Virus record (IMG/VR): IMGVR_UViG_3300025137_000074
Location: 1 to 43,021 of that record
Source of the DNA: a virus
DNA: 43,021 bases
Direction: 5' to 3' (one strand)
Part shown: positions 12,543 through 42,100 of the stretch, piece by piece
Numbering within the stretch: position 1 is the stretch's first letter
Layout of the letters: every line of letters starts with the position of its first letter
Translations under genes and position numbers: made by a program
Notes under the pieces: model-generated
Databases searched by the model: none
What the model saw: the letters and a program-made list of their open reading frames with translations, nothing else
Told to the model about the DNA's origin: nothing

Positions 12543-12983
12543 CTATAATTGTTGATTGTTCTTGAACTGTTGAATGCCTTCGTGGAGAATTTTGCTACTG
12601 CCTACGCGAACGTTTATAATGCCATTATAGTAATCATCTGATAAAAGAACTTCTCTTTCAAACTGCTCCTTTGCTTCAAGGTAACTCATTAAGCCCCTAC
12701 TTGAACAAAGATAAAGTATTTCACGTGTGAAGTTCTTGCTGCCTAGCTCTGCTACATCTGCCTGTAAGTGATCTGAAGATCCATAATATTCTCTCCAATC
12801 ACTTTCTACTGTGGTTCGTCTTTTGTTTTTCTTACCTTTAAGAGGTGGTTTTGTTTTTTTAAATTTTGCTAATTTTTTGCCAATGTATTTTTTGTTGCTT
12901 TTTAAGTTGGTTATTAAGTAAACAAATCCTTCAATGTCACTTGGTAACTGCTCAATAGGATCACCCTTGTAAGTCCAACTCAT
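12543..12983 (-). CDS. GIY-YIG nuclease domain protein, 146 aa
   Basis: A 146-residue protein with the GIY-YIG signature near the N-terminus: Gly19-Phe-Val-Tyr22, then Tyr33-Ile-Gly35 and Lys-Lys. A further block WREYYGSS and an E-rich helix (LEAKEQFEREVLL) follow, as in the family of small phage GIY-YIG endonucleases found in many T4-like genomes. Such enzymes cleave DNA, either as homing endonucleases or in repair and genome processing. There is no recognisable DNA-binding tail beyond the K-rich segment at residues ~36-55. It is the last gene of the gp55-to-nuclease operon and overlaps the preceding small membrane protein gene by 4 bases. The mobile or housekeeping role cannot be decided from sequence. 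Confidence 0.8.
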   Translation of the reverse strand: MSWTYKGDPIEQLPSDIEGFVYLITNLKSNKKYIGKKLAKFKKTKPPLKGKKNKRRTTVESDWREYYGSSDHLQADVAELGSKNFTREILYLCSSRGLMSYLEAKEQFEREVLLSDDYYNGIINVRVGSSKILHEGIQQFKNNQQL

Positions 12984-13198
12984 TTCTTTTGTTTTCTTAA
13001 CTGCTGTAATTGTAATGCCTTCTTGTGGTAATAGTCAACCTTTTTCTCTGCATAAAATGGTAAAACGTTAGGAAGTATACCATGTATAATACTAACTATA
13101 CCTGTGAGTATAAGATCGAAGCCTGCCACAACAGCAAACTTACCATGCTGGAAGTATCCTTTACGAGCTTCGTTAAGATGAGCTTTAATTTGAAACAT
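12980..13198 (-). CDS. Small membrane protein, DUF6356-like, 72 aa
   Basis: A 72-residue protein with one or two hydrophobic stretches between residues ~20 and ~50 (FAVVAGFDLILTGIVSIIHG, then ILPNVLPFYAEK) and a basic, Gln/Lys-rich tail. The arrangement HLNEARKGYFQHGKFA followed by IHGILP recalls the DUF6356 family of small membrane proteins known from bacteria and phages, whose function is not established. The start lies inside the end of the AMP-forming ligase gene (14-base overlap), and the stop overlaps the GIY-YIG gene by 4 bases, so all three are translationally coupled. A functional link to the ligase is only suggested by this coupling. Confidence 0.6.
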   Translation of the reverse strand: MFQIKAHLNEARKGYFQHGKFAVVAGFDLILTGIVSIIHGILPNVLPFYAEKKVDYYHKKALQLQQLRKQKK

Positions 13199-14513
13199 AC
13201 TTGTGCCTTAATTTTCCTATATCAGGTTTTCCTAATACATTAAGCTCTATGGGTACTATTAGTTTATCATAACTGATACCCTGGCCTGTTAATTTCTGGA
13301 TCAAACTATCAGTATTCACTGAATCATCATTCACACAGACTACAACATGTGTCTGAGAAGTACCAAACAACACAAGTTTTGTTGCTTGACTTTCGTCAAC
13401 AAGTTGTTGTGGATTAACTAACTCTCCGTTAATCCTTATAAAATCTTTATTACGTTTTTCAAAATAATAATTGTTTCCAACCGTGTTTACACGGTCACCT
13501 GTATTTAATGTATCCACATTAGAATCATTGATTTGGGTTGCTAAATGTTTACTTTTAACAATCACTAATTCACCGTGCCTATCAATTTTATACTCGGCAG
13601 TATCATCACAGTTTACGCCCATATCTTGTTGATTGTAGTCAGCAATATTTTGTTTGTTTATAAACTTGTGCATAATAGGAGGCAAACATTCTGTTAGCCC
13701 GTATATTACAACAACGTCACTAACACCTTGTTTAATTAGTTTTTCACAAAATGTTTTTGGAATCGTTGAGCCGCCAGTAAGTACATACTTAACATGACTT
13801 AAATCTAACTTGCTTAAATTTTCATACTGCTCGTAATTTGACGGAAACAATAGCATTGTATCAGGCTTGTGTTTATTAAATGTATCAACGTCATATGTGT
13901 CCCATAACTGAGGCAAAACGACCTTTTTACTAGAAAATAACGCAGGAAAGAAATACACAGTACTAACACCTAAGTGTACAATATTATGATAAAACCAACT
14001 TACTTTTGCTTCTTTCCAGTAGTGCTTGATACTATCGTTTGAAGCACAAGTAATACTTTCGTGTGTATGTTTTACTGTTTTAGAATGCCCTGTTGTACCA
14101 CTAGTAAACGATTCTAGTATAATATCATTGTGGTTAACACGATAAAGTTTTGATGGTTTAATATTGCCATCTAATTCAATATGAGGAACATTAACAGTTT
14201 CTACAATTACAGGTTGTATTCCACGAGTTAAAACAATTTTAATATTGCTCCTTGCACAGTACTCGTCATCAATGTAGTGATCGCCGCTAATAACAGGAAC
14301 AAGTCCGTAGTCAATAGAAGCAAACACTACTGCTAAATGATGTATGTCTTCTTGCAGACACAATGAAATACGATCGCCTCTTTTAAGTTTTTGACTCTCA
14401 AAGAAACACTGATATCCTCCAGCAAGACAAGTTAGCTCATCTTTACTGTAGATACGTTCGTTAGTGCAATCATGTATTTCAATATCGTTTTGTAATCTCG
14501 ATATTGAAATCAT
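13185..14513 (-). CDS. ANL-superfamily AMP-forming synthetase/ligase (acyl-CoA synthetase-like)
   Basis: A 442-residue enzyme of the adenylate-forming (AMP-binding) superfamily, which activates a carboxylic acid with ATP to an acyl-AMP and usually passes it to CoA or a carrier thiol. All key core motifs are visible in order: A3 phosphate loop TSGTTGHSKTVKHTH (137-151), A5 YGLTE (271-275), A7 TGD (338-340), the A8 hinge region around KRNKDFIRINGELVNP (353-368), and the A10 catalytic lysine in LGKPD (Lys429). The LTGGS segment at ~246-249 also fits the family. At 442 aa it is shorter than usual (about 500-550) but spans both N- and C-terminal subdomains. The acid substrate is unknown and no carrier-protein gene is nearby. 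It starts overlapping the stop of the histone-like gene (TAATG) and overlaps the small membrane protein downstream. Confidence 0.93.
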   Translation of the reverse strand: MISISRLQNDIEIHDCTNERIYSKDELTCLAGGYQCFFESQKLKRGDRISLCLQEDIHHLAVVFASIDYGLVPVISGDHYIDDEYCARSNIKIVLTRGIQPVIVETVNVPHIELDGNIKPSKLYRVNHNDIILESFTSGTTGHSKTVKHTHESITCASNDSIKHYWKEAKVSWFYHNIVHLGVSTVYFFPALFSSKKVVLPQLWDTYDVDTFNKHKPDTMLLFPSNYEQYENLSKLDLSHVKYVLTGGSTIPKTFCEKLIKQGVSDVVVIYGLTECLPPIMHKFINKQNIADYNQQDMGVNCDDTAEYKIDRHGELVIVKSKHLATQINDSNVDTLNTGDRVNTVGNNYYFEKRNKDFIRINGELVNPQQLVDESQATKLVLFGTSQTHVVVCVNDDSVNTDSLIQKLTGQGISYDKLIVPIELNVLGKPDIGKLRHKYVSN

Positions 14514-14695
14514 TACATACTGTTTTTCTTTTCTTGGATCTCAGCACGTCTTGATTTGGTAAGTTTACCAATGTCGCCTAGTGACTTTCTTGCTCGAGCG
14601 GCTGCGGCTTTAACACCTTTGTCTTCCCAAGCGGCATGCTCTTTTAAGTATGCTTCATAGGCTGCTACGATTTGTTCGTGAATTTGATTTGCCAT
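14513..14695 (-). CDS. Histone H1-like (Hc1-type) small basic protein, 60 aa
   Basis: A 60-residue protein with an N-terminal helix (IHEQIVAAYEAYLKEHAAWE) and a basic second half AAARARKSLGDIGKLTKSRR. The A-x-R-A-R-K-(A/S)-L-x-x-(I/L)-x-K-L pattern is that of bacterial histone H1-like Hc1 proteins and of small proteins common in marine T4-like phages. A DNA-binding or DNA-packing role is the family expectation; it may also be a virion protein. The gene is 9 bases downstream of gp46 and overlaps the ligase start by one base, so it is in the middle of the operon. Confidence 0.65.
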   Translation of the reverse strand: MANQIHEQIVAAYEAYLKEHAAWEDKGVKAAAARARKSLGDIGKLTKSRRAEIQEKKNSM

Positions 14696-14704
14696 GTTGT
14701 TCTC

Positions 14705-16474
14705 CTATATGACTTCGATATCTGTATTATAACTTGTAAACCCATTTTCTTTTGTAACTGTAAGTATGTTGTTTACACGACCAGCAAGTTCGTCTTTGTG
14801 CGACACAAGCCACACACTCTTTTTACGTTCTCTGCTAATCTTCTTTAGTATGGCAAGCGAGTTTTCAACTCCACTTGAATCCATTCCACTGTCAACTAAT
14901 TCATCAATGAATAACAAATTAATTGGCTGGTATAGATTTTCCCATACATCACGGAAAGCCCAACTTAAACTTAATATAAGTCTGTTACGTTCTCCACGAC
15001 TTAAATTGTCAAAATCTAAATCTCTTCCAAGCTCTTGTATTTCTACTGTTAAATCGTTTAAGAATACAACACTATGTGGTAATCCTATACGTTCTAAATA
15101 GTATGCTAATCGCTTGTTTAAGAATGCTAAGTTTTGATCAATAATTCTTTTTCTTATAAAACTATCTTTACTAGTTAGTAATCGTTGTAAAAACTCCTGA
15201 TGGTCTTTGACTCTTACAATTTCGTTAAGTGTAGTATAATCTACTTCTTGTATTGCAGTTTCCTGCATCTCTTGTATTTGTTCTGCGTATGGATCTACTT
15301 GTGCTAGTAAACCATCTAGTTCTGCTTTTAGTTTATCTAAACTACCTCTGTGATCATAAGCATCATCAAGAGACTCATAAAATACATTAGGTTCATCTCC
15401 AAGATCGCCTAGTTCGCCTAGTGCAATATTTAATGTATTTTCTTCAACACTATTTTTTTCTACAACATCTATTGCTTCTTGTAGAGATTCTTTTTTAGTG
15501 TTAATTGTATCTTCTTGTTTGTTATCGTGTATTTCTTGCCCACATGCATAACATTTGTGTTCGCTTAGTAGTGCTAATTCTTTTTCAAGTTTTTGTATAC
15601 TTTTATTGTTACGTTTTGTTTCAGCAGTTATTCTATCTAGTAAATCGTTTGTTTCTTTAATCTGTCTCTTTTTAGTTTTGTAATCTTTACGTTTACTGTG
15701 TGCTTCTAATTCTGCTTCAATATCAACATGCGATAATGCATCAAGCCCACTGTCAAGTTGTCTAGCATCTTCATCGTGTTTATTCTTCCACAATGTTTGT
15801 CTGCGTTTAAGTGCTTCAACTTGTTCTTCAATACGACCATTAGCATCAATTTGACTCTTGATACTAAACTCTTCTGTAGTTGCTAGTTCCTTACTAACTT
15901 TTAGTTGTTCTTTAAGTACATCTGCTTTTTCACTGAGCAATGTAATACCTAGTAACTGTTCGATAATAGCACGTTGATCGTTTGCTTTCATACTAAGGAA
16001 AGGTTCAGTGTATGTGTTTAGTGCAACAATATGTTTAAACATGTTGTGTTGCATACCAAGTAAACGTTCTATCTCTGCTTGTGTTTCTCGACTATCACCT
16101 TGTGCAGAATCACTTGCTTCTTGTTCGTGGTTATTAATATAAAACTTTAGTACATTTGGCTTACGTCCACGTTCAATCCTATACTGCATTCCTGAAAGTT
16201 CAAATTCACAAGTAACTAACATATTTTTACCGTTAGTTTTGTTTACCAAATTATCTCTACGAATGTTAGTTAAAGCCAGACCATATAGTGCATAACTTAA
16301 TGCATTAATTATAGTTGTTTTACCTGTACCGTTTCTTGAACCATTGTCACCACCACCAGTATCTAAGTTTTCACCTAGCACAAGTGTTAAGTCATCACGA
16401 TTAAAATCAACTGCCTGGGTACTATTACCCACACTCATAAAGTTTTTTGCTGTAAGATTGTTTATTTTAAACAA
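14705..16474 (-). CDS. gp46: Recombination endonuclease subunit gp46 (Rad50/SbcC-like)
   Basis: A 589-residue SMC-type ATPase, partner of gp47 in the Mre11/Rad50-like complex that resects DNA ends for recombination-dependent replication. The Walker A motif is GSRNGTGKTT at residues 45-54. Long coiled-coil arms flank a zinc-hook CYACGQE at ~308-314. The ABC signature is LSRGERNRLILSLSW and the Walker B is INLLFIDELVDSG near the C-terminus, followed by the SHKDEL switch region. Length is close to T4 gp46 (560 aa). It starts one base after the gp47 stop region (adjacent genes), the usual 47-46 order. Confidence 0.96.
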   Translation of the reverse strand: MFKINNLTAKNFMSVGNSTQAVDFNRDDLTLVLGENLDTGGGDNGSRNGTGKTTIINALSYALYGLALTNIRRDNLVNKTNGKNMLVTCEFELSGMQYRIERGRKPNVLKFYINNHEQEASDSAQGDSRETQAEIERLLGMQHNMFKHIVALNTYTEPFLSMKANDQRAIIEQLLGITLLSEKADVLKEQLKVSKELATTEEFSIKSQIDANGRIEEQVEALKRRQTLWKNKHDEDARQLDSGLDALSHVDIEAELEAHSKRKDYKTKKRQIKETNDLLDRITAETKRNNKSIQKLEKELALLSEHKCYACGQEIHDNKQEDTINTKKESLQEAIDVVEKNSVEENTLNIALGELGDLGDEPNVFYESLDDAYDHRGSLDKLKAELDGLLAQVDPYAEQIQEMQETAIQEVDYTTLNEIVRVKDHQEFLQRLLTSKDSFIRKRIIDQNLAFLNKRLAYYLERIGLPHSVVFLNDLTVEIQELGRDLDFDNLSRGERNRLILSLSWAFRDVWENLYQPINLLFIDELVDSGMDSSGVENSLAILKKISRERKKSVWLVSHKDELAGRVNNILTVTKENGFTSYNTDIEVI

Positions 16475-17488
16475 TTATAGATTCCTGTATATTTCCATTA
16501 ATAGGTTACTGTCGTATAACTCACTTTGTACTGCCGTAAGTTGACTGTAAACAATACTATCAACACTTTCAAAGTTAATTTCTACTTGTTCGTCAAATTC
16601 AGTCTCAACATTCTTTTGTGGCAATAGTGCAAGTTCTCTTACATCATACTGTTCATAGAATGTTTCTTTTATAAAGTTCGCTTCTTCATAACTGATATCA
16701 ATATCTAAATTAATTCTTGCATATGTTTTAGGCAACAATAACTTATCTGGATTATCAAGCAGGTCACTAAGTTTTAGTACACGGTACTTAGGTGCATCAG
16801 GCCATGCATGATATACATGTGGCTTATCCCATTCAAGTATCATTGCACCTCTGTCATCGTCCCACGCATCTGAATAGTTATGTGGAAAAGCATTACCAAT
16901 GTAACTTATGTTTCCTACTTCTTGTCTTTTGTGAAAGTGCCCGGTAAACATACGTTCAACACCTTTGAAGTGATTGTTCTTTAGTTCTCCGTGGTCGGGC
17001 ATTTGTACCATTGCATTCATATAAAAACTAGGAAGTTCAAAATGTCCTAGCATATACTTTGCTTCAATTTTTTTAATTTGTTTCCATTCATCGCCAACAA
17101 GCCATGGAACAATAGCAACATCACCTTCAACTGTAATATCGTTAAACAATCTTACATTAGGTAAATGCTTAATCCATGCTACACTATTGAAGTCACGTTT
17201 ATCTCTATAATACTCATCGTGGTTACCAGGCAAAAATATTACCTGATCAAACGCATCGCTAAGTTTAGTCATAGCCATAATACTGTAATTCAGTGTAGCA
17301 ACGTTTATACTTGCTCTGTGGTGGTGCCAATCACCAAGAAATAAACAAGTTTCTGCTCCTTGTTCTTTTCCTAGTTTAATAGCCCATTCAACAAATGCCA
17401 CACCATCTTCGTTATGTGCATATGCATTACTCTTGTTGCCAAAGTGTATATCCGTAAAGACTACTGCCTTCTTGAATAAGTTACTCAT
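16475..17488 (-). CDS. gp47: Recombination endonuclease subunit gp47 (Mre11/SbcD-like)
   Basis: A 337-residue metallophosphoesterase nuclease. The five family motifs are visible in order: DIHFG (residue ~13), GDWHHHR, GNHDE, GHFE and GHFHKR. These bind the two metal ions of the Mre11-type active site. It pairs with gp46 to process DNA ends, in T4 also supporting host-DNA degradation. Length matches T4 gp47 (339 aa). The gene follows gp55 after a 62-base gap and directly abuts gp46. I saw no frameshift or missing motif. Confidence 0.96.
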   Translation of the reverse strand: MSNLFKKAVVFTDIHFGNKSNAYAHNEDGVAFVEWAIKLGKEQGAETCLFLGDWHHHRASINVATLNYSIMAMTKLSDAFDQVIFLPGNHDEYYRDKRDFNSVAWIKHLPNVRLFNDITVEGDVAIVPWLVGDEWKQIKKIEAKYMLGHFELPSFYMNAMVQMPDHGELKNNHFKGVERMFTGHFHKRQEVGNISYIGNAFPHNYSDAWDDDRGAMILEWDKPHVYHAWPDAPKYRVLKLSDLLDNPDKLLLPKTYARINLDIDISYEEANFIKETFYEQYDVRELALLPQKNVETEFDEQVEINFESVDSIVYSQLTAVQSELYDSNLLMEIYRNL

Positions 17489-17550: not shown

Positions 17551-18384
17551 CTATTTCTTGTCTGCAGGTGCTACTACTTTAGATTCTTCAGCAATTCTAG
17601 TATTCCATTCACTGTTGTGTTGTCTGGTATAACTTGGTGTTAAATCATTCATTTCAAGTATATCATCACGTATGTTTTGATTACGTTTTTCGATGTTTAG
17701 TACTCTTGTAAAACTATTTGTAATAGCGGCAGTATAATAAGCAAATGGGTTTTGACTCTTTGATTCATCAAATTGTAAACCAATTTGTGCAAGTTGTACA
17801 AGTGCTTGTCCACGCATTTCATCAACATATGTATAACCACGCCAGTTATATCTGTGACTGTAACGTTCACATAGTTTCATGTACATGTTTGCAAGTTTGT
17901 TTGATGTTTTTCCATGATCCTGACTAAAGTAACCATTTTCCATTCCACCAACCCAATGACTTTTAGCCACTAGCTGTAGTTCTCCGTCATCATCATGTCT
18001 ATAATGCTGGTATGGAGGAAACAAACACTTGGTATGATGGTCTGCAACTGTTTTAGGAGTTTTCTTACGTCCTGGTTCTAATGGAATATGTTCAAATGTC
18101 ATTACACGGAACACTAGTTCACTTAACTGAAAACTTTCAGGGTCAACTGCAAAGTCTGCCATCTTTAGTTTTTTGTTATCGTTTTTCTCAAACGCCGCAC
18201 GTTGTATTCGGTCAGCCCGTGCTTTACGAGCTTCTTTAATTGAGGACTTGTCAATAGCGGCTACGCTTAATACAATACAATCAACATCTTTTGATTCGAT
18301 ATCAATATATGATCCGTAACTTGTTTTACTTTTGTGTATTTCTTTTAATAAATCTCTGTTGTTGAGATAGTTTCTGGTGGCCAT
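17551..18384 (-). CDS. gp55: Late-transcription sigma factor gp55
   Basis: A 277-residue sigma-like factor of the T4 gp55 family, which directs host RNA polymerase to TATAAATA late promoters together with the sliding clamp. The diagnostic core is NWRGYTYVDEMRGQALVQLA, FDESKSQNPFAYYTAAITNS and the segment RVLNIEKRNQNIRDDILEMN, which correspond to sigma region 2-like helices. It is longer than T4 gp55 (185 aa) because of an N-terminal ~110 residue extension (KDVDCIVLSVAAIDKSS and following), as in marine homologues. A TATAAT-like -10 is visible upstream on the minus strand (around 18415-18420). Late-type promoters recur across the window, consistent with its role. Confidence 0.92.
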   Translation of the reverse strand: MATRNYLNNRDLLKEIHKSKTSYGSYIDIESKDVDCIVLSVAAIDKSSIKEARKARADRIQRAAFEKNDNKKLKMADFAVDPESFQLSELVFRVMTFEHIPLEPGRKKTPKTVADHHTKCLFPPYQHYRHDDDGELQLVAKSHWVGGMENGYFSQDHGKTSNKLANMYMKLCERYSHRYNWRGYTYVDEMRGQALVQLAQIGLQFDESKSQNPFAYYTAAITNSFTRVLNIEKRNQNIRDDILEMNDLTPSYTRQHNSEWNTRIAEESKVVAPADKK

Positions 18385-29600: not shown

Positions 29601-30124
29601 TCAATACACTAGAAGGCTACAAGAGTTTAAGTGATGCACTTGTAATGCATAGTGCAAAATTTAAGCCATTGTTTGGTTTAAAAGCAGATTCTAACCTACG
29701 TGCAAGTTTCAAAGTAGTTAAAAATCCAGGCTATAATATTAGTGACAGTGAAATTAAATCAAAACTAGTTGTAGCACTTAATCAATACTTTGCAGTTGAA
29801 AACTGGGACTTTGGTGAAACATTTTTCTTTAGTGAGCTAAGTGCTTACTTACATACTACTCTTACACCTTATTTAAATAGTGTTGTTATTGTTCCAACAA
29901 GTGGAACACAAGCGTTTGGTAGTTTATATCAAATCAGTTGCGAACATGATGAAATATTTGTTAATGCCGCAACAGTTAATGACGTAGCAGTAATAGACGC
30001 TATTACGGCTTCTAACATTAAAGCAACAGGCGAAGTATACACAGGTTCAGCAACAACAAGCGGAACATCATCTATTATAACAACATCATCCGGTAGCGGT
30101 GGTGGTGGCGGTGGGGGCTACTAA
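26630..30124 (+). CDS. gp6: Baseplate wedge protein gp6 (enlarged)
   Basis: A 1164-residue gp6-type wedge protein, the ring-forming core of the baseplate. The first ~130 residues hold the diagnostic segment (NYPEDFNDYIESSEFIALMD, SLAFRQDLNARENFLETA, RRDSVLRLAKLLSYHPKRN). The J-like middle follows (LVFGDGVFSDIPNGSF; APQQYYTQNRMINGEDYNIF) and the C-terminal SEIKSKLVVALNQYFAVENW is also typical. T4 gp6 has 660 residues; the excess lies mainly between ~500 and ~990, which looks like inserted beta-rich domains. The C-terminus is a run of Gly (SSGSGGGGGGGY). Its stop overlaps the start of the next, giant gene (TAATG), so they are coupled. Confidence 0.93.
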   Translation: MSTSERQNSLFVSEDWTKIYQTFKDADFQSYDFETLRTTMVQYLRNNYPEDFNDYIESSEFIALMDLIAYFGQSLAFRQDLNARENFLETAQRRDSVLRLAKLLSYHPKRNQPARGMLKITSIQTTESVFDSTGRNLADAFIVWNDSTNPDYLEHYAVIMNAAMTNSQSFGNPGLKGTLSGISTEIYQINLIPDTIPVVPFVADVAGQSMTFEVVNGTFQGKDYVYEAAPRPGDTFNTFYRQDGKGAGSSNTGFFFYFKQGTLETSEFQLNTALSNRVVSIDVNGINNDDVWLFNLDANADAGTEWTKVPAITGNNVIYNSLSENVRSLFAVNSRTDDQIDLVFGDGVFSDIPNGSFRTFYRTSNGRSYRIKPNDINGMKLNISYVSKTGSIEELSVGLSLQYTVDNASGRDSIADIKSKAPQQYYTQNRMINGEDYNIFPLTNFNNVIKSKAINRTSSGISRYLDVKDVTGRYSSTNIYANDGALYRNEFLNNVTFTWITDNDIFNVLKNTVEPLLRSNEMEHFYFANYERKALTGSNVNWNRVSFGSNYSTGYFTNDAGEVLEIGTASGNNRSFVKVGGMLKFAAPTGNHFMENGTLMSGDPNHPGSMKNVYSGIVSINNNGTGVADGKVTAQTGAIRLNENIPSTAIAQTVLPGFKSDLPGAFESTLFTNIKQYKNFAIGFDYLDNVWYVVENRDISTGNTFSRDFAEDTSTTNKDGSWLIKFTTDGSTYTVTYRGLEYFFTSEQETRFYHDKTSKVYDPVTGLTKKDTISVLGVNADPVTAAPLVRNLEWNVYNVVTESDGYNDNTKILVTFADQDDDGIIDNPDIFDMAVGIDVPTGAGADRKFVFLKRQADYDNFDKYVAMPAGTVNHTYETKAAIDAQLTNLLTNQVLYAVTDNKFYVISNATGTKVAIESLDYQVRVGRDAIKFHYSHHAPNDRRIDPSPGNIIDIYLLTQNYSDAYVEYVQDTSSTVVLPAEPTVNSLRSQFNTLEGYKSLSDALVMHSAKFKPLFGLKADSNLRASFKVVKNPGYNISDSEIKSKLVVALNQYFAVENWDFGETFFFSELSAYLHTTLTPYLNSVVIVPTSGTQAFGSLYQISCEHDEIFVNAATVNDVAVIDAITASNIKATGEVYTGSATTSGTSSIITTSSGSGGGGGGGY

Positions 30125-33100
30125 TGGCTAAACGTAAATCCAGTTCGTTCTTACCTAAGTTTTTACAAACAGTTAAGAACGAAAAATTCTTACATGCTAC
30201 ACTAGATCAGTTACTTAATAGTAAGAACCTAGAACGCATTGACGGCTTTGTCGGTAAAAGACGAGGACCTAGTTATAGTATTGATGATCCATATATTAGT
30301 ACAGTAGGTGCTAACAGACAAAACTTTCAACTAGAGCCTAGTACAGTTTACAAAAAAAATAACGAGATTGAATTTGTTGTAACGTATGATGATTTAATTA
30401 ATAACATTTCTGCTAACGGTGGTGATGCAACAAGACACGATAGATTATTTGAACAAGAATATTATAACTGGGGTGGGTTCAGTGATTACGACAAGTTAAT
30501 CAACTTTGGAGAGTACTACTGGTTACCAAGTGGTCCTGGTACTGTTGCCGTTAGTGCAAACGACGTTCCTATTAACACAGACTTTACAGTTACACATACA
30601 GGCTTATCAGAATACACACTAAGTCCTACATATGGTGATACTAAAAATCCAACTATCTACTTGGTGCGTGGAGGCAGTTATACATTTGCTGTTAACCAGA
30701 CAAGTCAGTTTTGGATTCAGTCAGAGCCGGGTACTACAGGCAAAAGTTTAATAAGTTTTAATCGTAGCACACGTGATATCTTTGGTGTAACTAACAACGG
30801 ACAAAGTAACGGTAGTGTAACATTTAATGTTCCTAAATCAAGAGATCAACAATTTTTTACACAAACATTAGTTAATGTTGCGTCAGTTGACTTAGCAAGT
30901 GATTTAACACATAAACAAATTAATGGTAAGACAGTTAGCCAGATACAAGAACTTGGCGGTGTTGATGGACAGTTGTTCCTTGAAAATAAAACTATTATCT
31001 TTACACATTCAACTGAAGATGATGCTAATTGGGATGCCACAACTGTATTGCCAAAAGCAAACCGTTTTAGTGTTTTCCAAATACAAGTTGGCGGCAGTAG
31101 TAAGATTACATTATTACCTATACAAGCAATAGGCATAGATAAAAAAGTACAAATTAATGAAGGTACACTTCATAGCACAAAAGAATATTATAGAAATCCA
31201 AGTGTTGATAATTTACAAGTAGTGCCGGCAATCACAGCACCAATGAGTACACTATACTATCAGGATAGTACAGATGCAACACGTTATGGAGTTATTAAAT
31301 TAATTGATCCTGACTATAGAACAATAGATATTGATAACGAAGTTGTTGGCAAATCTGCATACACAAGTCCAAACGGTGTACAGTTTACAAACGGATTACA
31401 TATTAGTTTTGATACAACTGTATTACCTACTACAAAACAAAATAAGACATTTATTGTTGACGGTGTAGGAGAAGGTATCTTCTTAATTGACAAAGCCGAG
31501 CATGTGAGTTATGAACTAGCAAATACTGACACAAAAGATTATGTTACAATTAGACGTGGTAGTGTAGATAGAAATGCATGGAGCAGAAGTAACCACTGGT
31601 ACCATAAAGAAGTTGTTAATACTATTGCAACATACAATAAAACTATTCCAACACTAGATCAAACTAGTAGAGCAAATAGACCAATTATTGAATTCAATAG
31701 AAACTTAAATCTTTTTAATCACGGCACACTTGGTATAGCACCGGTTGATTTAATTGACAACTATACTACTGATGCACTTAGTATTGTACAAAACACAAAC
31801 AATTTTAGAATTGACGGAGTACTACTGACTGAAGGCATGCGAGTTATTTTTGCCGCAGATACAAACGCAGATGTAAGAAGTAAAGTTTATACAGTTAACA
31901 TTGTAAACTTTCAGAGTACAGGCGATACAGAAATTAGATTAGTTGAAAGTACTACAGACATAGTTGCAGTTAACACTGGATTTTCTGTTAAACAAGGTAC
32001 AACGCAAAAAGGAAAAAGTTATAAGTGGAATGGAACTGCATGGAGTTTATGTCAGTTAAAGACTTTTATAAACCAAGCACCGCTATTTGATATCTTTGAT
32101 TCAACTGGAGTAAGTTTAAATAATGCAACTTCATATGTTGGAAACAACTTTACAGGAAGTAAATTATTTTCATATGCTACTGGTACAGGTGCAAGTGATA
32201 CAGAATTAGGATTTGCATTAAAGTACAGAAACTTTAGTAACATTGGCGATATTATTTTTAGCAATGATTACAGCACTGATACATTTGTATACACTACAAC
32301 AACAGGCAGTACAACTAAAAACATCAACACTGGATTTATTCAAAGTACAGATAGTACAGGAACACAAAAGTATACAGACGGTTGGATAAAAGTAATTAAC
32401 CCAAGTACACAATATCAAGAAGTTATGTATATTGCCTCTGGTGATGCAAAACAGTTTGATATAGGAGCCGAGCCTATTACATCTACTGCAAGTCGTCCTA
32501 GTGTAATAGTTTACAAAGATAACGTAGAAATAACAACAGGTTGGACTGCAACAACATTTGGTGGCAGAAACATTGTTGAATTTACAACGGCACCAACTGC
32601 AAAAACACAAATTATTATTGAAGTATTAAGTAATACTGCAACACAATACGGCAATTACCAAGTACCGGTTAATCTAAGCAACAATGCCTTTAACGCTAAG
32701 TTTGATACTATCACGCTTGGGCAGATGCGTAACCACGTAGGTAGTACGTTAAAAACTGCTACTGACTTTGATGGAACATATCCTGGAAGTAGTAACCTAA
32801 GAGACATTGTTAACAGTAGTGAACATGCTGGTAATATCTTACATCATAGTGCTGGAATGGTTTTTCCAAGTGTATTCTTACAAGACAACAACTTAAACTT
32901 TGTTAAGTCAGTTGAGTATAATGCAAGTGAATATACCAAGTTTAAACAGAAGTTTATACAAGCGTCTAACACACTGGACTTAGATTTTAGTGATATTCCT
33001 GCCGCAGTTGATGTGATACTTGCAAGTATTAACAATACAAAAAGTAGTACGTTTCCGTTTTATCATAGTGATATGGTTGGACACGGTACTAATAAAAAGA

Positions 33101-36100
33101 TTAGAAAATACACTATTACTGATGATAGACAAACCAGTTATCAATTTGAAAACTTATTTGTAATAGGAACAAATGGTAATAGAAGTGTATTAGTATATCG
33201 TAATAATGTACAACTACAACATGGAACTGATTATACATTTAGTAGTATCAGAGCCGCAGTTGAGTTTAAGAAAGACTTATTAGCACTAACTGATGTTATT
33301 AAAATTGTTGACTATTCTAATACTGCAGGAAATTATATTCCACCTACACCAAGTAAGTTAGGCTTATACCCAAAGTACCAGCCTGTAAAATATATCGATA
33401 CAAGTTATTTTACTGATGTAGAAATGATCCAAGGACATGATGGAAGTAAGACTCGTGCATTTGGCGGATACTTAGATGACATTTTAATTGAACTAGAAAA
33501 CAGAATTTATAACAATATCAAAGCAACGTACAAACCAGAAGTATTAGACATCAATGATGTTATGCCTGGACGTTGGAGAGATACAAGTTATTCGCTTATA
33601 GAGAAAAACAATATCATTGCAAAGTTTTTCTTAAAGTGGGCAATACAAAACAGAGTTAATTGGACTACCAATCAAGAGTATACAACTAACAACGAGTTTA
33701 GTTGGAACTATAATAAATTAAACGACAAACTAACTGATGAGCTACTTCCAGGTTTCTGGAGAGGCATTTATAACTTTTACTTTGATACTGATAGACCAGA
33801 TACTCATCCGTGGGAGATGTTAGGCTTTAGTGAAAAGCCAAGTTGGTGGGAATCACGTTATGGTCCGGCTCCGTATGCAAGTGGAAACTTAGTACTATGG
33901 GAAGACTTACGTGACGGTAAAATTTACAGTGACGGAATTAGTGAAACACATACACTAAACACAAATTATGCTCGTCCTGATTTACTAGATATGATTCCAG
34001 TTGATACACATGGAACATTACGTTCACCTTGGAAGACACTTGCTAAAGGTTCAACTGTATTCGACAACGATAGTTCGTGGACACTAAATGATTTTGGACC
34101 TGCACAGTCAGCCTGGATGAAAAGTAGTGACTGGCCGTTTATATGCCAAATTGCAATGGGCTTAATGAAGCCTGCAAAGTATTTTGGATTAACATATGAT
34201 ACAGATATTATTAGTAGAAGTACACTAACAAATAATATTGTTAACGTTAATACTAATAAGCAATTACAAAGACCTGACTTTAGTATTCCGTTTATAGATA
34301 GTAACATTGTAAATGGCTATTCAACATACATCGGTAACTATATGCAATTCTTAGGATTGTCAACAACTATACTCGAAGACACAGTTGATAAGTTAGATAT
34401 CAACTTAGCATGTAAGTTAAGTAGTTACACAGATAAGAAATTTTTAAAAGTACTTGCTGAACAAGTAAGTCCTAACGCAATTAGTGAAAACGTTATTATA
34501 CCAGATGAAGATTACAGTTTACATGTACAAAAAACTGGTCCTATTATCAATGCTCCATACAGTGGAGTAATTGTACAAAGAAGTGACACAGGATACTTAT
34601 TATATGGTTACGATCATACAAATCCTTTCTTTACAGTTATACCAAGTGTACAAAGTAATAACGTACAAACACACACAGTTTTAGAAGATCGTTATTACGA
34701 GTACAAAGACTCACAAGACTTTACACAACAAGTTGCGTACGGTACTGAACTAAGTTCTCCGCAACAAGTATTTGATTTCTTAATTAGTTACGGACGTTAC
34801 TTGACATTAATAGGTTACGACTTTGATAACAGTACAGAAGAAGTAGCCAACGGAACAACAACTGCCAACTGGGCAATGAGTGGTAAAGAGTTTGCATATT
34901 GGAATAAGCAAAACTGGGGTGTAGGTGCAGTTATTAGTATAAGTCCTAGTGCTAACTTCTTACAGTTCAATCGTGAAGATGGAATGATCGACAGTCTTGT
35001 TAGTGACTTAGGAAGTAGCAAGGCAGTACTAAATCAAAACTTTGACAGTTTAACAATAGACAATTTTAAAACAAAAAGAGAAGACGGCAGATTTGAATTA
35101 GAGCCAGCACCAGACGCCGGCGGAATTTATTATGCAGATCTTAAAGTAGTACAATATGAGCATGTACTAGTTTTAAATAATACAACGGTGTTTAACGATA
35201 TTGTATATCAACCAGAACTAGGTAACAGACAAAACAGATTACGCTTAGTAGGTTGGAGAACACAAGGTTGGGACGGTAGTTTAACGGCACAAGGATTTAT
35301 TTTAAATCGTGGTACTGTAGATCTGTTTGTACAAAATACAGATTACTCTAAAGGTACTATTGTAAAATATAATGATAACTTATATACTGCCGTACAAAAA
35401 CATACAAGCGGTAGTGCATTTGATTATAATCAATGGGCACCAACAGATAGTTTTAAATTAGGATTACTTCCTAACTGGGACACACTAGGTGGAAACTTTG
35501 AATCATTTTATGATTTAGACGAAGCCAACTTACAAAGTGATGCTGATAGATTTGGTAAAAGTGTTATTGGTTATCAATCAAGAAGTTACTTAGAGAACTT
35601 AGGACTTAACGATACATCACAGATAAAGTTTTATCAAGGTATGATACGTGAGAAGGGTACTAAGAATTCAATTGACAAACTACTCCGTGCTAAGTTAGAT
35701 AACACAACCTCAGACATTAATATGTTTGAAGAGTGGGCAATACGCAGTGGCGAGTATGGCGGAACAGAAGTAAACAGTAGAGTTGAAATACAACTTAGAG
35801 AAATTGATACACAAGGTAACCCTTCAGTAATTCATACTATTCCTAGTATAGAAGAAAAAGAAGAAGGTGTTAATAACTTACTTGTAAATAATTTTTACGA
35901 GGCACCTCCTACTATAACTGACAAGTGGATACCAACCAGTGACGACTACGGAATTATTAGTGATGCATTACCATATGCCGGTTATGCAAAATTAACTGAT
36001 GCCGATGCTACACTGTTTAACATTACTTCATATCAAAACTTAGATTCAAATATTTCTACAATGGACACTGGTTACGTTTTATACGTTGCTAACGATCTTA

Positions 36101-39100
36101 CACTTGATTGGAATATGTATTACTTAGATGTTACAAAAGTAGTAGTTACAACTGCACAAGCAAGTAGCAACAATACAATATTGTGGACAACTGATGAACA
36201 ACATACACTTCAACCAGATGATTTTATTGTTATTAAAGGCTTTGGTGAAGGTAGTGGCGTACATAGAATATTAAGAACAACAGGATTAAAAAGTTTTGAA
36301 ACAGATGAAAAGGTTGAAGGACTTGATCAAACTGGTGAAGCAGTAGTATTAAAGTTTACTAGCATTCGTTTTGCAGATGAACTTACACTTAGTTCTTTCA
36401 ATCCAACACGTGGTTGGAAGTTAAATGACAAAGTATTCATTGATGACTACAACGGCAAGTGGGCAGTATTTGAAAAGACAAAAGAATACGCAAACAATTA
36501 TACATTTACTCCTGGCATTTACAACTATACAGATGGACGCTTTGGACATAGCATTGCAGTAAACGGTGATGAGAGCTTGGCTGCATTTGGTATGCCAACT
36601 GCTTTAACATACGGTGCAGTATCAATGTACACACCAAACATTGAAGGTAAGTTAAGTGAAAGTGAACAACTTGCTCCAACAAATGTATCAGTTAGAGAGT
36701 TTGGACATAGTGTAGATGTATTTGAGGAAACTGTTGTTATTGGAGCACCTGGCACAAACGCAGGACAAGGTGCAGTATTTGTTTACAAGTTAAACAAAAA
36801 ACTGTACGAATATGAATTAAGACTTGCATGGAGTGATACAAGTGCTACTCGCTTAGGACAAAGTGTAAAGTTTAGTAAAGATGGTAAACGTTTATTTGTT
36901 GGGTCACCCGGAAATGTTTCAGTTTATATTTTAGACATTGAACAAGCAGACGGTGTTACTGAAATCAATAAAGTTGAAGATACAATATTTACAGATGGAA
37001 CTAACAAAGTTACTTCGCTTGTACCGATGTTTCCTGGTAGAAATGTTACACTGGAAGGTGTAGTACAAATCGAAGGTGTAGACTATACACTTGTAAACGG
37101 GTTAATGACATTTGCTGTTACTCCGGCATTATCAAGTATTGTAAGAGTTAACACAGGCTTAAATGTAATACAAAGAAAAGTAGTTACTGGTAACGGTGGC
37201 TCAGACTTTGGTACAAGTATTGATACAAACTTAGCAGGCGACAAGTTTGTTGTTGGTGCACCTAAGGAAAACGGAGCAGGACAACAACGTGGTGCAATTT
37301 ACATTTACGTTGCTAATACTGAAACATTCAAAACTGCAGACAGTGAATTACTAAAAGCAGACGATAGTACAACTTTAGCAGACAGTGGACGCCCTGGTTG
37401 GACATTACAAAAGACATTAATTGCATCAGTCACAGGTGACTTTAGTTTTTACGGTACAGATGTTGCAATGACACACGATGGCTTAAAAGTATTTGCAAGT
37501 AGCCCGGGTTTAGATAGATTTGAAAGTGAAAGTGGATTAGTAAGTGTACACAAGTATGCATCCAATGATTGGACACTAGTTCATAATATTACACAAGATG
37601 CACAAACAGACTTACAACAATTTGGTAAGGCACTTGCAATTAACAATGATGGAAGTGCATTAAGCATAGCTGCACCAACTAGTATATTTGATTCATCATG
37701 TACATTTGACAATAGTGAATTAGTAGTTGATAGTAAAGCAACTGCATTTGTTGACAGAAGAAAACGTGGTGGTAATGTTTATGTATACCAATCAATAAAT
37801 GATAGTTACATACAAACACAAACATTATCAAACACAACTGTTTCTGACAATGACGAATTTGGTTATGACATTGCAGTAGTAGGCACAACAATATTTGTTG
37901 GAACCCCATATGATGATAATGTTAATACTAACGCAGGTCGTGTGTTTGAATATAAACTTAACGGTAGTGTGTTTAACATCAGTGAGCAGGAATCAAAATT
38001 AGTTGATCCAAAACGCATTAACAGAGTATTCAGTTACAACAAAGTAACAAATAAAATTATTAATTACTATGACTGGATTGATCCTATTAAAGGAAAGATA
38101 CCAGGACTAGCAGATGAAAACATTGATTATAAAACATTATGGGATCCAGCAGTATATGCCGCCGAAGGTGCAAGTACATGGAGTTCAAAACAAGTTGGTA
38201 AAATTTGGTGGGATCTTGCAACTGTAAAATATAACTATGCAGAACAAGGTGACTGGGCATACCGTAGCACATTCTGGAGCACAGTATTTCCAGGATCCGC
38301 TATTAATGTTTACAGTTGGGTTGAAAGTAGTGTGTTACCAAGTGCATACACAGGCGGTGGCGAAGTTTACAATGCAAACTTATATGTAACAAATACAACT
38401 TACACTAATCAAAGTTCCACAACAAAGTATTATTTCTGGGTTAGAGGACTTAGAGACATTACTGATAATCATACAGTAAGTCCATATAACGTTGCACAAA
38501 TTATTGTAGATCCAACAACATACGGAATTAAGTATGTAGCATTTACAAGTCCAAGTGACATTGCTAGTTATAATATGAATGGTGACATTATTGATAATAA
38601 TACTATTCTTGCAGTTGATTTTGATATTAAGAAAAACGATCAAGTATTGCATACTGAGTGGAGTATTATTAAAGAAGGTTATGCAGAACAAACATTACCT
38701 ACTAACATAGAACGTAAACTTGTAGATAGTTTAGTCGGTGCTGATACAATAGGTAATCAAGTACCTGACAATAATTTAAATATTACACAACAACATGGCG
38801 TACAATTCCGTCCAAGACAGAGTATGTTTGTTAATAGATTTACTGCATTAAAAACATTTGTTGATGTTGTGAATCCTATATTACTTGCAAACCCTATTGC
38901 AATTAGTAGAGACATTAGTGGCTTACTTGCAGAAGATACAGAGCCAACAGTAAACAGTGGCGAGTGGAATCAACGTGTCGAGAACCAAACACAGTTAGGA
39001 TATGTAAGACTCTTAGAGCGTCCGACTGGTTGGAGAGTTCTTGTTGCAAGTGATGAGAATGTACAAAACTTATGGAGTATATATTCTAAACTAGAAAATA

Positions 39101-42100
39101 ATACTTGGACACTTGTAAAGTTACAAAGTTATGATGTAAAAACACAATGGGCTTATGCAGACTGGTATGCAACTGGATATAGTGCAACAACATACATAAA
39201 TCATTTAATAGAATTAAAGAAAGATTTAGTTAACTTAACTGGAGTAGTTAGTGGCGAGATTGTTAAAGTTGACAACGGTGGTGCTTGGGAATTATTATAT
39301 TATAACGGTGTAGATTATGCAACTGTTGGTATTGCAAACGGTACACTACAACTAGGAACAAGTTTATACGATTACACAAAGAACCGTTATGGTTTTGACA
39401 GTGAAGTATTTGACTTCCAACTGTTTGATCAAGAGCCACAAGTTGAAACTAGAAAAATTATTAATTGTGTACTAAACAATATACTTGTTGAAGATTTAAA
39501 AATTCAGTATAACAATTTAATTATGGCAATAATATATCATGTACTTGATGAGCAACCATATGTAGATTGGTTATTCAAAACAAGTTTCGTAAGTGTTAAT
39601 CATAACATTAGAGCACTTGATGCCTTGCCATATTACAGAAGAGATAATCAATCTTACGTTAACGATTTCATTAGCGAAGCAAAACCTTATCATACAAAGA
39701 TACGTGAGTATGTACTAAACTATGATAACACTGAGCCATGGGACGGTGACGTTACAGACTTTGATGTTGCAAGTTATTATGACTCAACACTTGGATACTA
39801 TCGTAAGCCAAACACAAGTAGTGCAGATGATGTTGCAAGATTAAAAGCAGGAACAAATAGTCAATACAACTCAAACAAAGCATTTATTGTAAAAGAATTA
39901 GTAATTGAAAATGGAGGAACTGCATATACTGTTCCACCAGTAATTACAATTAGTGGCGGTGGTGGTACTGGTGCTACTGCAACAGCAGTTATTGACACAG
40001 GCGTTGTAACTAGTATTATAATAACTAATCCTGGTAGCGGTTATACTTCAACACCGACAGTAACATTTAGTGGTAGTGCAGGAACAACTGCAAGTGCTTA
40101 TGCAAGACTTAGTAACGAACAAATAAGAACATTTGAAAGTACTTTAAAGTTTGATAGAATAAAGTACACAACTGAAGTTAAAGAGTGGGTGGCAGAAACC
40201 GCATATAGCTCAGGTGATAAGATTACATACTTAGGTGAAGCATATACTGCCAATGCAGACTTTACTAGTGGAGTAACATTTACAAGTGATAGTTTAACAG
40301 TTATTGCAGATGAAACATTTACAAATGCAATGGATAGATCTATTGCATACTACCAACCAACAAGTACACAACCAGCAAAACAATTAGAAAACTTATTCTA
40401 TGGAATCGAATATCCACGTAATAAAATAGTTGGACCAACGTTTGATCAAGAGCCTGGTTACTCAAGAGGCGGTTTTGACGCAGTACCTTTTGATAACTTT
40501 GAAGTAGGTTCTGAAGGCATTAAAATGATTTCAGGTGTCGCTGATACAAATATTACTGCAAGTAATATTGCTATTACCGGTGCTGAAATGGAAGCAGGTG
40601 CATTTGTAAACTTCGACTTTGTTGATTCTGGATACTCAGAAAATCAAACTGTACTAACAGAAGGATTGACAGTAGCACAAGTACTCCAAAATAGATTTGG
40701 TGATAGTTTACTTGGAACAAGACCAGAAGACATTGATATTATTGGTGGTAAGTTTGTTGATCAGTATAACGCACATTCACCTGAAGAGTTTATACCGGGT
40801 AGAGTATTTGATAGTTTAGATATGGAAATATATCAAACACCTAGTACACTTGAAAATGGAACTGCACTAAGTCCAAAAATTGATGTTGTTAAGCACAGAG
40901 CAAATGGAACTGATGTTAGATTTAGTTTTATGCCGTTAGATAATATCATTGGCGACAACATTATGATTTACACTGCACAACAAGGTAAAGTACAACCAGA
41001 TGAGTTTACATTAGACTTTACGACATTTGAAGTTGTATTTAATACTGCTCCTAGTAATAATGATATAATTGATGTTATTAACATTGGTACTACTGGACAA
41101 AATATGATACTTGATGTTGTGTACATAAGCAACGGAACAGATTTAAAAATTACACTTCCTGTTAAGCAGTCATTAGCAAAGCAATCATTGGTATTAGTGA
41201 ACGGTGTTAAAACAGATCATACTATTAGTGATGAGAGCGAGCGTGGAGTATTAACTTTTTCAACTGCGCCGGTAAGTGGTGCACACATACATGTATTTGT
41301 GTTTAACTTAGATCCGGGTATTGAAATTGCATACAGTCATGTGGCACAAGATACAATTATTATGAATGGCTCTTTAAGAACATTTACAATGACTAATCGA
41401 CCATTCTATGATGGCCCAACAGATGCAAAACTATTTGTTGAACTAAATGAAAATAGATTACGTCCAGCAGTATACACATACTTCACAGGTGATGGTGGCA
41501 CAACTACTTTTACACTGACAAATAATGCAGACATTAATCATACAACTATTACTGCTTCGGACATTAGCATATTTGTTAACGGAGCGGCTAACACAGACTG
41601 GACATTAGATGCACAAGTTGGAACTGATCCAAGAACAGTTACATTTACTACTGCTCCAACAAGTGGCTCAAAGATTGCAATAGGTGACAATACAAATGCT
41701 GAATATACTGTAGTTGGAAATCAACTTACGTTAGATAGTAGTTTACCAGTTACTACTGGTACTAAACTTAATACAACTACATTTAGTAATCACGATACAT
41801 TAGAAATTACTGCACAGACATTTAAGGGGTTGACAGCAAGTGAAGTAACCATTACAATAGGGTATGACGGTGACAATTATGATGCATCAAATTTTGATAG
41901 TGACAGTATAGCAGTTATTAATAGTCCACTATTTGACTTGTACAGAACAATAACCGATATTAATTATATTTGGGTTACACTAAACGGAATTAAATTAAGT
42001 GTCGGTACAGACTATGAAGTTAGTAGTGCAGGTGACTTAATAATTAAAAAATCAATCACAAGCAATGATATTATTGTTGTTAACCAGTTTAGTGATAAAA

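Follow-up and report, generated by a model that had tools for sequence, protein, structure and literature searches.

A predicted acid-activating ANL-superfamily enzyme resident in the recombination operon of a jumbo-phage lineage and paired with a small DUF6356 protein

The stretch of DNA analyzed here, the whole 43,021 nucleotides of IMG/VR record IMGVR_UViG_3300025137_000074 (hereafter the window), carries on its minus strand, in this order, genes for a gp55-like sigma factor, gp47, gp46, a small histone-H1-like (Hc1-like) protein, an AMP-forming acid-activating enzyme of the ANL type, a DUF6356 protein and a SegE-type GIY-YIG protein (Table 1; the gene tables are greedy longest-ORF picks rather than an annotation). 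The ANL gene begins with an ATG that overlaps the stop of the upstream Hc1-like gene (TAATG). Its last 14 nt are shared with the beginning of the DUF6356 gene, whose stop overlaps in turn with the start of the SegE gene (ATGA). These start/stop overlaps confirm the coupling of the ANL gene on both sides, as proposed in an earlier note made from the letters of this stretch alone. The same note placed the gene between gp46 and the GIY-YIG gene; it does lie within the gp46 operon, but its immediate neighbors are the Hc1-like and DUF6356 genes. Elsewhere in the window, positions 30124-42627 form one ORF of 4167 aa that contains an FG-GAP repeat and a carbohydrate-binding module 5/12; its product is probably a very large tail protein or adhesin.

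Table 1. Features of the ANL-containing operon in the window, and TctC/Bug-type proteins located by ANL and gp46 genes in other jumbo phages (locus handles precede their coordinates).
Feature	Position	Strand	Evidence
gp55-like late sigma factor, operon head	17551..18384	-	phrog_12791, 272 bits
gp47 (SbcD-like) nuclease subunit	16475..17488	-	phrog_100, 203 bits
gp46 (SbcC-like) recombination endonuclease subunit	14705..16474	-	phrog_77, 330 bits; 49% identity to PA5oct gp46
Histone-H1-like (Hc1) protein, 60 aa, between gp46 and ANL	14513..14695	-	PF07432, 38.1 bits
ANL (AMP-forming acid-activating) enzyme, 442 aa, compact C-terminal domain	13185..14513	-	PF00501, AF2 model, catalytic residues, dN/dS
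DUF6356 small membrane protein, 72 aa	12980..13198	-	PF19883, 39.5 bits (cut-off 24.4)
SegE-type GIY-YIG protein, operon end	12543..12983	-	PF19835, 124 bits
TctC/Bug-type protein, jumbo phage	L284 6132-7085		apparent signal peptide
TctC/Bug-type protein, jumbo phage	L358 4053-4976		apparent signal peptide
TctC/Bug-type protein, jumbo phage	L323 2530-3474		apparent signal peptide
TctC/Bug-type protein, jumbo phage	L299 3261-4187		apparent signal peptide

The genes for gp55, gp47 and gp46, recognized by their PHROG matches, follow one another on one strand in an order identical to that of PA5oct. The nearest relatives of the gp46 protein are found in Pseudomonas phage PA5oct and its kin (49% identity), Sinorhizobium phage Phosso (45%) and Agrobacterium phage Atu_ph07 (45%); judged from these sequences, the window covers part of the genome of a T4-related jumbo phage, one of the PA5oct/Atu_ph07 kind. 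The description of the locus as a T4-like replication/recombination operon is right as regards gp55-gp47-gp46, but the phage, whose gp46 is nearest to that of PA5oct, is a jumbo phage and not an ordinary T4-like one. From the distribution of DUF6356, together with a 1.2 Mb genome carrying this family, we infer that an alphaproteobacterial host is plausible. None of the three annotated jumbo phages examined (PA5oct, Phosso and Atu_ph07) has an ANL beside gp46, in agreement with the statement in the earlier note that no standard T4-like gene of this kind was known. However, phage ANLs as such are known, from an IMG/VR scan, from BFVD and from the gp46 loci of other jumbo phages, as described below.

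The AMP-binding family PF00501 matches the window ANL at 98.7 bits (E 4e-28; Pfam cut-off 29.9) and the ANLs of related contigs at 81-100 bits, whereas PF13193, the standard ANL C-terminal domain that had also been expected, gave no match in the window ANL at E 0.001. Because some ANLs score nothing against PF13193, this miss leaves membership of the superfamily standing; in the alignment, the C-terminal part is shorter than that of bacterial ANLs. The core motifs are present as previously listed, namely A3 (TSGTTGHSKTVKHTH), A5 (YGLTE), A7 (TGD), A8/hinge (EKRNKDFIRINGELVNPQQL) and A10 (LGKPDIGKL). K145 (A3), E275 (A5), D340 (A7), R354 (A8) and K429 (A10) are invariant in all nine family members aligned, while an alignment of 43 viral ANLs shows G139, T141, D340, R354 and K429 to be invariant, and S138, G142, K145, G272 and E275 to be at least 90% conserved. 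The adenylation residues are thus kept in the window lineage, and nearly so across the viral ANLs, and for this lineage the alignments show none of the loss of catalytic residues that would have spoken against the intact enzyme suggested in the earlier note. Structure prediction points the same way. An AF2 model computed from the 43 aligned viral ANLs (pLDDT 82.8, pTM 0.78), which superseded a first model from nine sequences that was too weak (pLDDT 57), matched ANL structures in the PDB by Foldseek (E 3e-21, TM up to about 0.7), with McyG A-PCP, Staphylococcus aureus MenE, FadD13 and further ANL enzymes or NRPS A domains at the top; the orientation of the domains in the model is uncertain (rmsd 6-10 Å). 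The family and the adenylation site are secure, and the model shows the two-domain ANL fold.

Scans of IMG/VR recovered this ANL on 18 other contigs, six at 95-100% identity and the rest at 48-55%, two of the 18 showing it as a 5' or 3' part only. The genomes compared are all metagenomic and mostly fragments; one ANL-bearing sister contig reaches 306,714 bases. The gene order around the ANL is constant in all compared loci that have the junction, with the exception of the last gene, the SegE slot being taken in sister lineages by a PDDEXK_15 nuclease (PF24608, about 80-84 bits in L030, L031, L035 and L038). A homolog of the Hc1-like protein, 75% identical, is likewise located between gp46 and the ANL in L031, L033, L035, L038 and L039. 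Sister contig L038 also encodes a 2OG-Fe(II) oxygenase (16003-16566) adjoining the portal gene, where the window has none. Between the window and its 95% relative, dN/dS is 0.093 for the ANL, 0.077 for gp46 and 0.44 for a neighboring 776-aa protein. The number of contigs and the low dN/dS sustain the earlier view that the gene is not a stray insertion. An assembly chimera, including one joining phage and host DNA at this point, is ruled out because independent contigs share the gene order, with identical junctions; a decayed or chance ORF is ruled out by the dN/dS and the conserved motifs.

Outside this lineage, close relatives of the enzyme were not recovered. A tblastn search with the ANL at E 1e-5 gave zero matches in 50,697 phage records, and a looser search of that collection returned weak matches only (E-values 0.001 or above). 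Some records of the collection (e.g., Acinetobacter phage MD-2021a and Salmonella entries) contain fadD, acsA or entE and seem to be bacterial sequence filed there in error, making ANL counts in it unreliable. No close cellular relative was present in 398 genomes from the phylum of a gammaproteobacterial MAG (best match 48 bits), and a genome-contig collection yielded one 25% match, in a search by family-specific patterns that could miss a moderately diverged cellular relative. On these searches, with that reservation about the patterns, a recent acquisition from the host was rejected. The comparison of the contigs is best explained if the ANL is resident in this operon and has been maintained vertically within a single lineage of jumbo phages, and the shared operon most likely reflects a shared timing of expression rather than a role of the ANL in DNA recombination.

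Regarding the substrate, His180 at the A4 position aligns with the His of the FHxxG motif of acyl/aryl-CoA ligases, and the Asp of NRPS A4 segments is absent. Since this Asp is replaced by a His in an FHxxG-like context, the substrate is probably not an alpha-amino acid, and the predicted pocket resembles those of acyl/aryl-CoA ligases. No PP-binding carrier protein was found in 14 related contigs; given this absence and the A4 His in place of the Asp, both an NRPS adenylation domain and a phage-encoded NRPS or siderophore line were rejected. Stand-alone ANLs are mostly CoA ligases, and CoA is their default acceptor. Therefore, a conventional auxiliary acyl- or aryl-CoA ligase, which would feed a fatty, aromatic or short-chain host acid into CoA metabolism for energy or membrane and would act independently of DUF6356, is a tenable possibility, although short of a probable one. 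It is consistent with the A4 segment, with the presence of MenE (o-succinylbenzoate-CoA ligase) and FadD13 among the PDB neighbors (PDB 3ipl, 5x8f and 3r44), which share fold, size class and an FHxxG-type A4 with the window ANL, and with the best NCBIfam models being fatty-acid-CoA ligases, even though these score far below cut-off (72 bits against 476). However, identity to MenE and FadD13 is about 15-17%, the curated MenE model gives 56 bits against a cut-off of 330, and no NCBIfam model of a curated CoA-ligase subfamily is above its cut-off. The C-terminal domain is compact, shorter than those of MenE and FadD13, and escapes PF13193. The A8 glycine, which acyl-CoA synthetases require for the thioester step, is present in the window (G363), whereas every sister lineage aligned has D or N instead, and the A8 GR is KR in all except L035 (RR); CoA transfer may thus have been lost. 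A CoA ligase of this kind would, in addition, leave the constant pairing with DUF6356 unexplained.

This pairing is a regular feature of the lineage. PF19883 was detected in all 14 related records searched, and the DUF6356 gene follows the ANL in every compared locus covering the junction. The encoded protein presents one strong hydrophobic stretch (hydropathy peak 2.0 over 19 residues). In cells, roughly one in ten of the 398 genomes sampled has DUF6356, present as a single gene, with no constant neighbor in the six bacterial genomes viewed, and phage contig L073 carries DUF6356 without any ANL. A further DUF6356-like ORF (23 bits, cut-off 24.4) is present in the 306 kb sister contig, about 220 nt before a second ANL of 236 aa; this repetition is suggestive, although it is not proof.

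A second lineage of jumbo phages, called freshwater from the contig sets rather than from sample records, also contains an ANL in this operon. In a 345 kb jumbo contig, whose gp46 is 63% identical to that of a sister, the ANL is located between gp47 and gp46 and adjoins a TctC/Bug solute-binding protein. A survey of 80 gp46 loci found an ANL in this place in five, and a profile search with four of these five retrieved 12 loci; six representatives were inspected, each with its ANL at gp46 and four also with TctC. These freshwater ANLs (e.g., L287, L299, L323, L358, L369 and L374) resemble that of the window in lying within the gp47/gp46 operon of jumbo phages related to this one, in the shared pocket NIxHxGxSxxxFFPxL and in RIND at A8. 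Nevertheless, they are only 20-26% identical to the window ANL, lie upstream instead of downstream of gp46, usually have TctC/Bug and not DUF6356 as partner, and in some cases have lost catalytic letters (A3 K to M in L299, A5 E to T in L323). Two trees grouped the window and freshwater operon ANLs in one clade (97/92 and 98/92), with long branches flagged. An early tree had recovered ANLs from halogenase operons as sisters of the window clade, and the addition of the freshwater sequences changed this placement; the alternative grouping of the window clade with the halogenase-operon ANLs is nevertheless not rejected (p-AU 0.08), and profile-profile scores singled out no closest group. Therefore, common descent of both operon ANL groups appears likely rather than established. 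Bug/TctC proteins are periplasmic solute binders, the small carboxylates quinolinate (PMC11452294) and terephthalate (PMC8556258) being among the ligands described. By this analogy, the TctC/Bug pairing in the freshwater phages may point to a small carboxylate that is taken up or handled at the cell envelope.

ANL relatives are no rarity among viral sequences, a single IMG/VR motif scan giving 258 stretches that encode them. Two AMP-dependent synthetases of uncultured Caudovirales phages in BFVD (A0A6J5L571 and A0A6J5L563) share the phage-encoded ANL fold and a length of 442-465 aa; they are, however, only 15-18% identical to the window ANL in structural alignment and are annotated by similarity only. 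The halogenase-operon ANLs (L228, L208 and L219; 454-469 aa) are compact phage enzymes with conserved A3, A5, A7 and A10, and are nearest to the window ANL by single-profile score (47-75 bits). In contrast to the window ANL, to which they are about 20% identical, they occur with tryptophan halogenase and desaturase-like genes and without DUF6356, and they are not its sisters in the better-sampled tree. In these loci and their kin (L208 2998-7344, L219 2923-7272, L228 2923-7296), genes for a tryptophan halogenase (PF04820, about 300 bits), for a desaturase-like membrane protein rich in His and for a GNAT-like protein come after the compact ANL. A halogenase pathway was rejected for the window lineage, PF04820 being found in none of the 14 records searched.

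Sister and related contigs also display biosynthetic genes. Between 1.2 and 20.7 kb, contig IMGVR_UViG_3300027668_000008 (L042 1219-20000, L043 1018-1725) encodes at least eight radical SAM/SPASM-type proteins, a NifU-domain protein, SufE, GNAT-like, DUF6356-like and cold-shock proteins and a short ANL of 236 aa, and this region is apparently a phage biosynthetic gene cluster. At about 288.5-289.7 kb (L057 3530-4663), the same contig encodes a RuBisCO large-chain-like protein (PF00016, E 4e-35), whose surroundings include nucleotide-sugar dehydrogenases, a DegT aminotransferase and a carbamoyltransferase. The short ANL type, of about 236 aa, starts at A3 and is without the A10 lysine (L282 8266-8973, L283 7976-8674, L043 1018-1725); it stands in a conserved row after a GNAT-like gene and before a sulfotransferase-like protein without Pfam match. 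In jumbo cyanophages, clusters with halogenase and carbamoyltransferase genes are described in a jumbo-phage review (PMC7824862), a term search of which brought up nothing on an ANL.

Such surroundings bear on the idea that the ANL is a macromolecule-modifying ligase, placing the acyl group of acyl-AMP directly on an amine or hydroxyl of a small molecule or of DNA, protein or glycan; it would then act as an amide or ester synthetase or serve in a biosynthetic pathway of the phage. The degenerate A8 loop would fit this idea, as would the large biosynthetic clusters of the 306 kb sister contig (radical SAM, NifU, SufE, GNAT-like, second ANL, carbamoyltransferase and nucleotide-sugar genes) and the tryptophan halogenases in the operons of other marine phage ANLs. 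However, no acyltransferase, modification gene or carrier protein adjoins the window ANL, in the sole long sister contig the clusters are tens of kb or more away, and kinship to the halogenase-operon ANLs is not established, so that we consider this alternative rather unlikely. That the ANL fold has a moonlighting or regulatory role, binding or competing for an acid and ATP (e.g., depleting a host metabolite or ATP as acyl-AMP) with no productive second step, is highly improbable: the elements of the second half-reaction are poorly conserved and the freshwater relatives show catalytic drift, but the window lineage keeps all adenylation residues, including K429 of A10, with a dN/dS of 0.09.

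The explanation that we favor, although we hold its chances to be about even, is a working, operon-resident ANL that makes an acyl-AMP whose product is used at the envelope together with DUF6356. With ATP and Mg, the enzyme would likely convert a carboxylic acid other than an alpha-amino acid into acyl-AMP. The acyl group might then be transferred to CoA, as is the default in ANLs that stand alone, or straight to a different nucleophile. Finally, the product could serve at the host envelope, where DUF6356 would assist, and perhaps alter a lipid or a surface molecule during infection. An envelope role is suggested by the envelope-type partners, DUF6356 here and TctC/Bug in the freshwater phages, and by nothing else. 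A more far-reaching version of this favored explanation, which we regard as improbable, would see in ANL plus envelope partner (DUF6356 in marine phages, TctC/Bug in freshwater ones) an ancestral operon module of jumbo phages, taking a small carboxylate at the envelope and, through a phage-specific second step without CoA, modifying the host envelope or a phage macromolecule.

We found nothing specific in the literature on phage ANLs or on acyl-CoA synthetases in jumbo phages, and what appears to be new is that jumbo phages of more than one lineage have an ANL fixed in their recombination operon, with envelope-type partners that recur. Acid-activating enzymes of phages are usually seen as sporadic auxiliary genes, whereas here one is locked in a core operon under strong purifying selection, across a broad range of giant phages. 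The implied claim, which can be tested, is that giant phages with an operon ANL need the activation of a carboxylic acid during infection. For the orphan family DUF6356, the pairing with the ANL is also a clue to function. More broadly, to judge from the marine phage ANLs that have halogenases, carbamoyltransferases and radical SAM enzymes as neighbors, acid activation may be a side of phage chemistry that has been overlooked.
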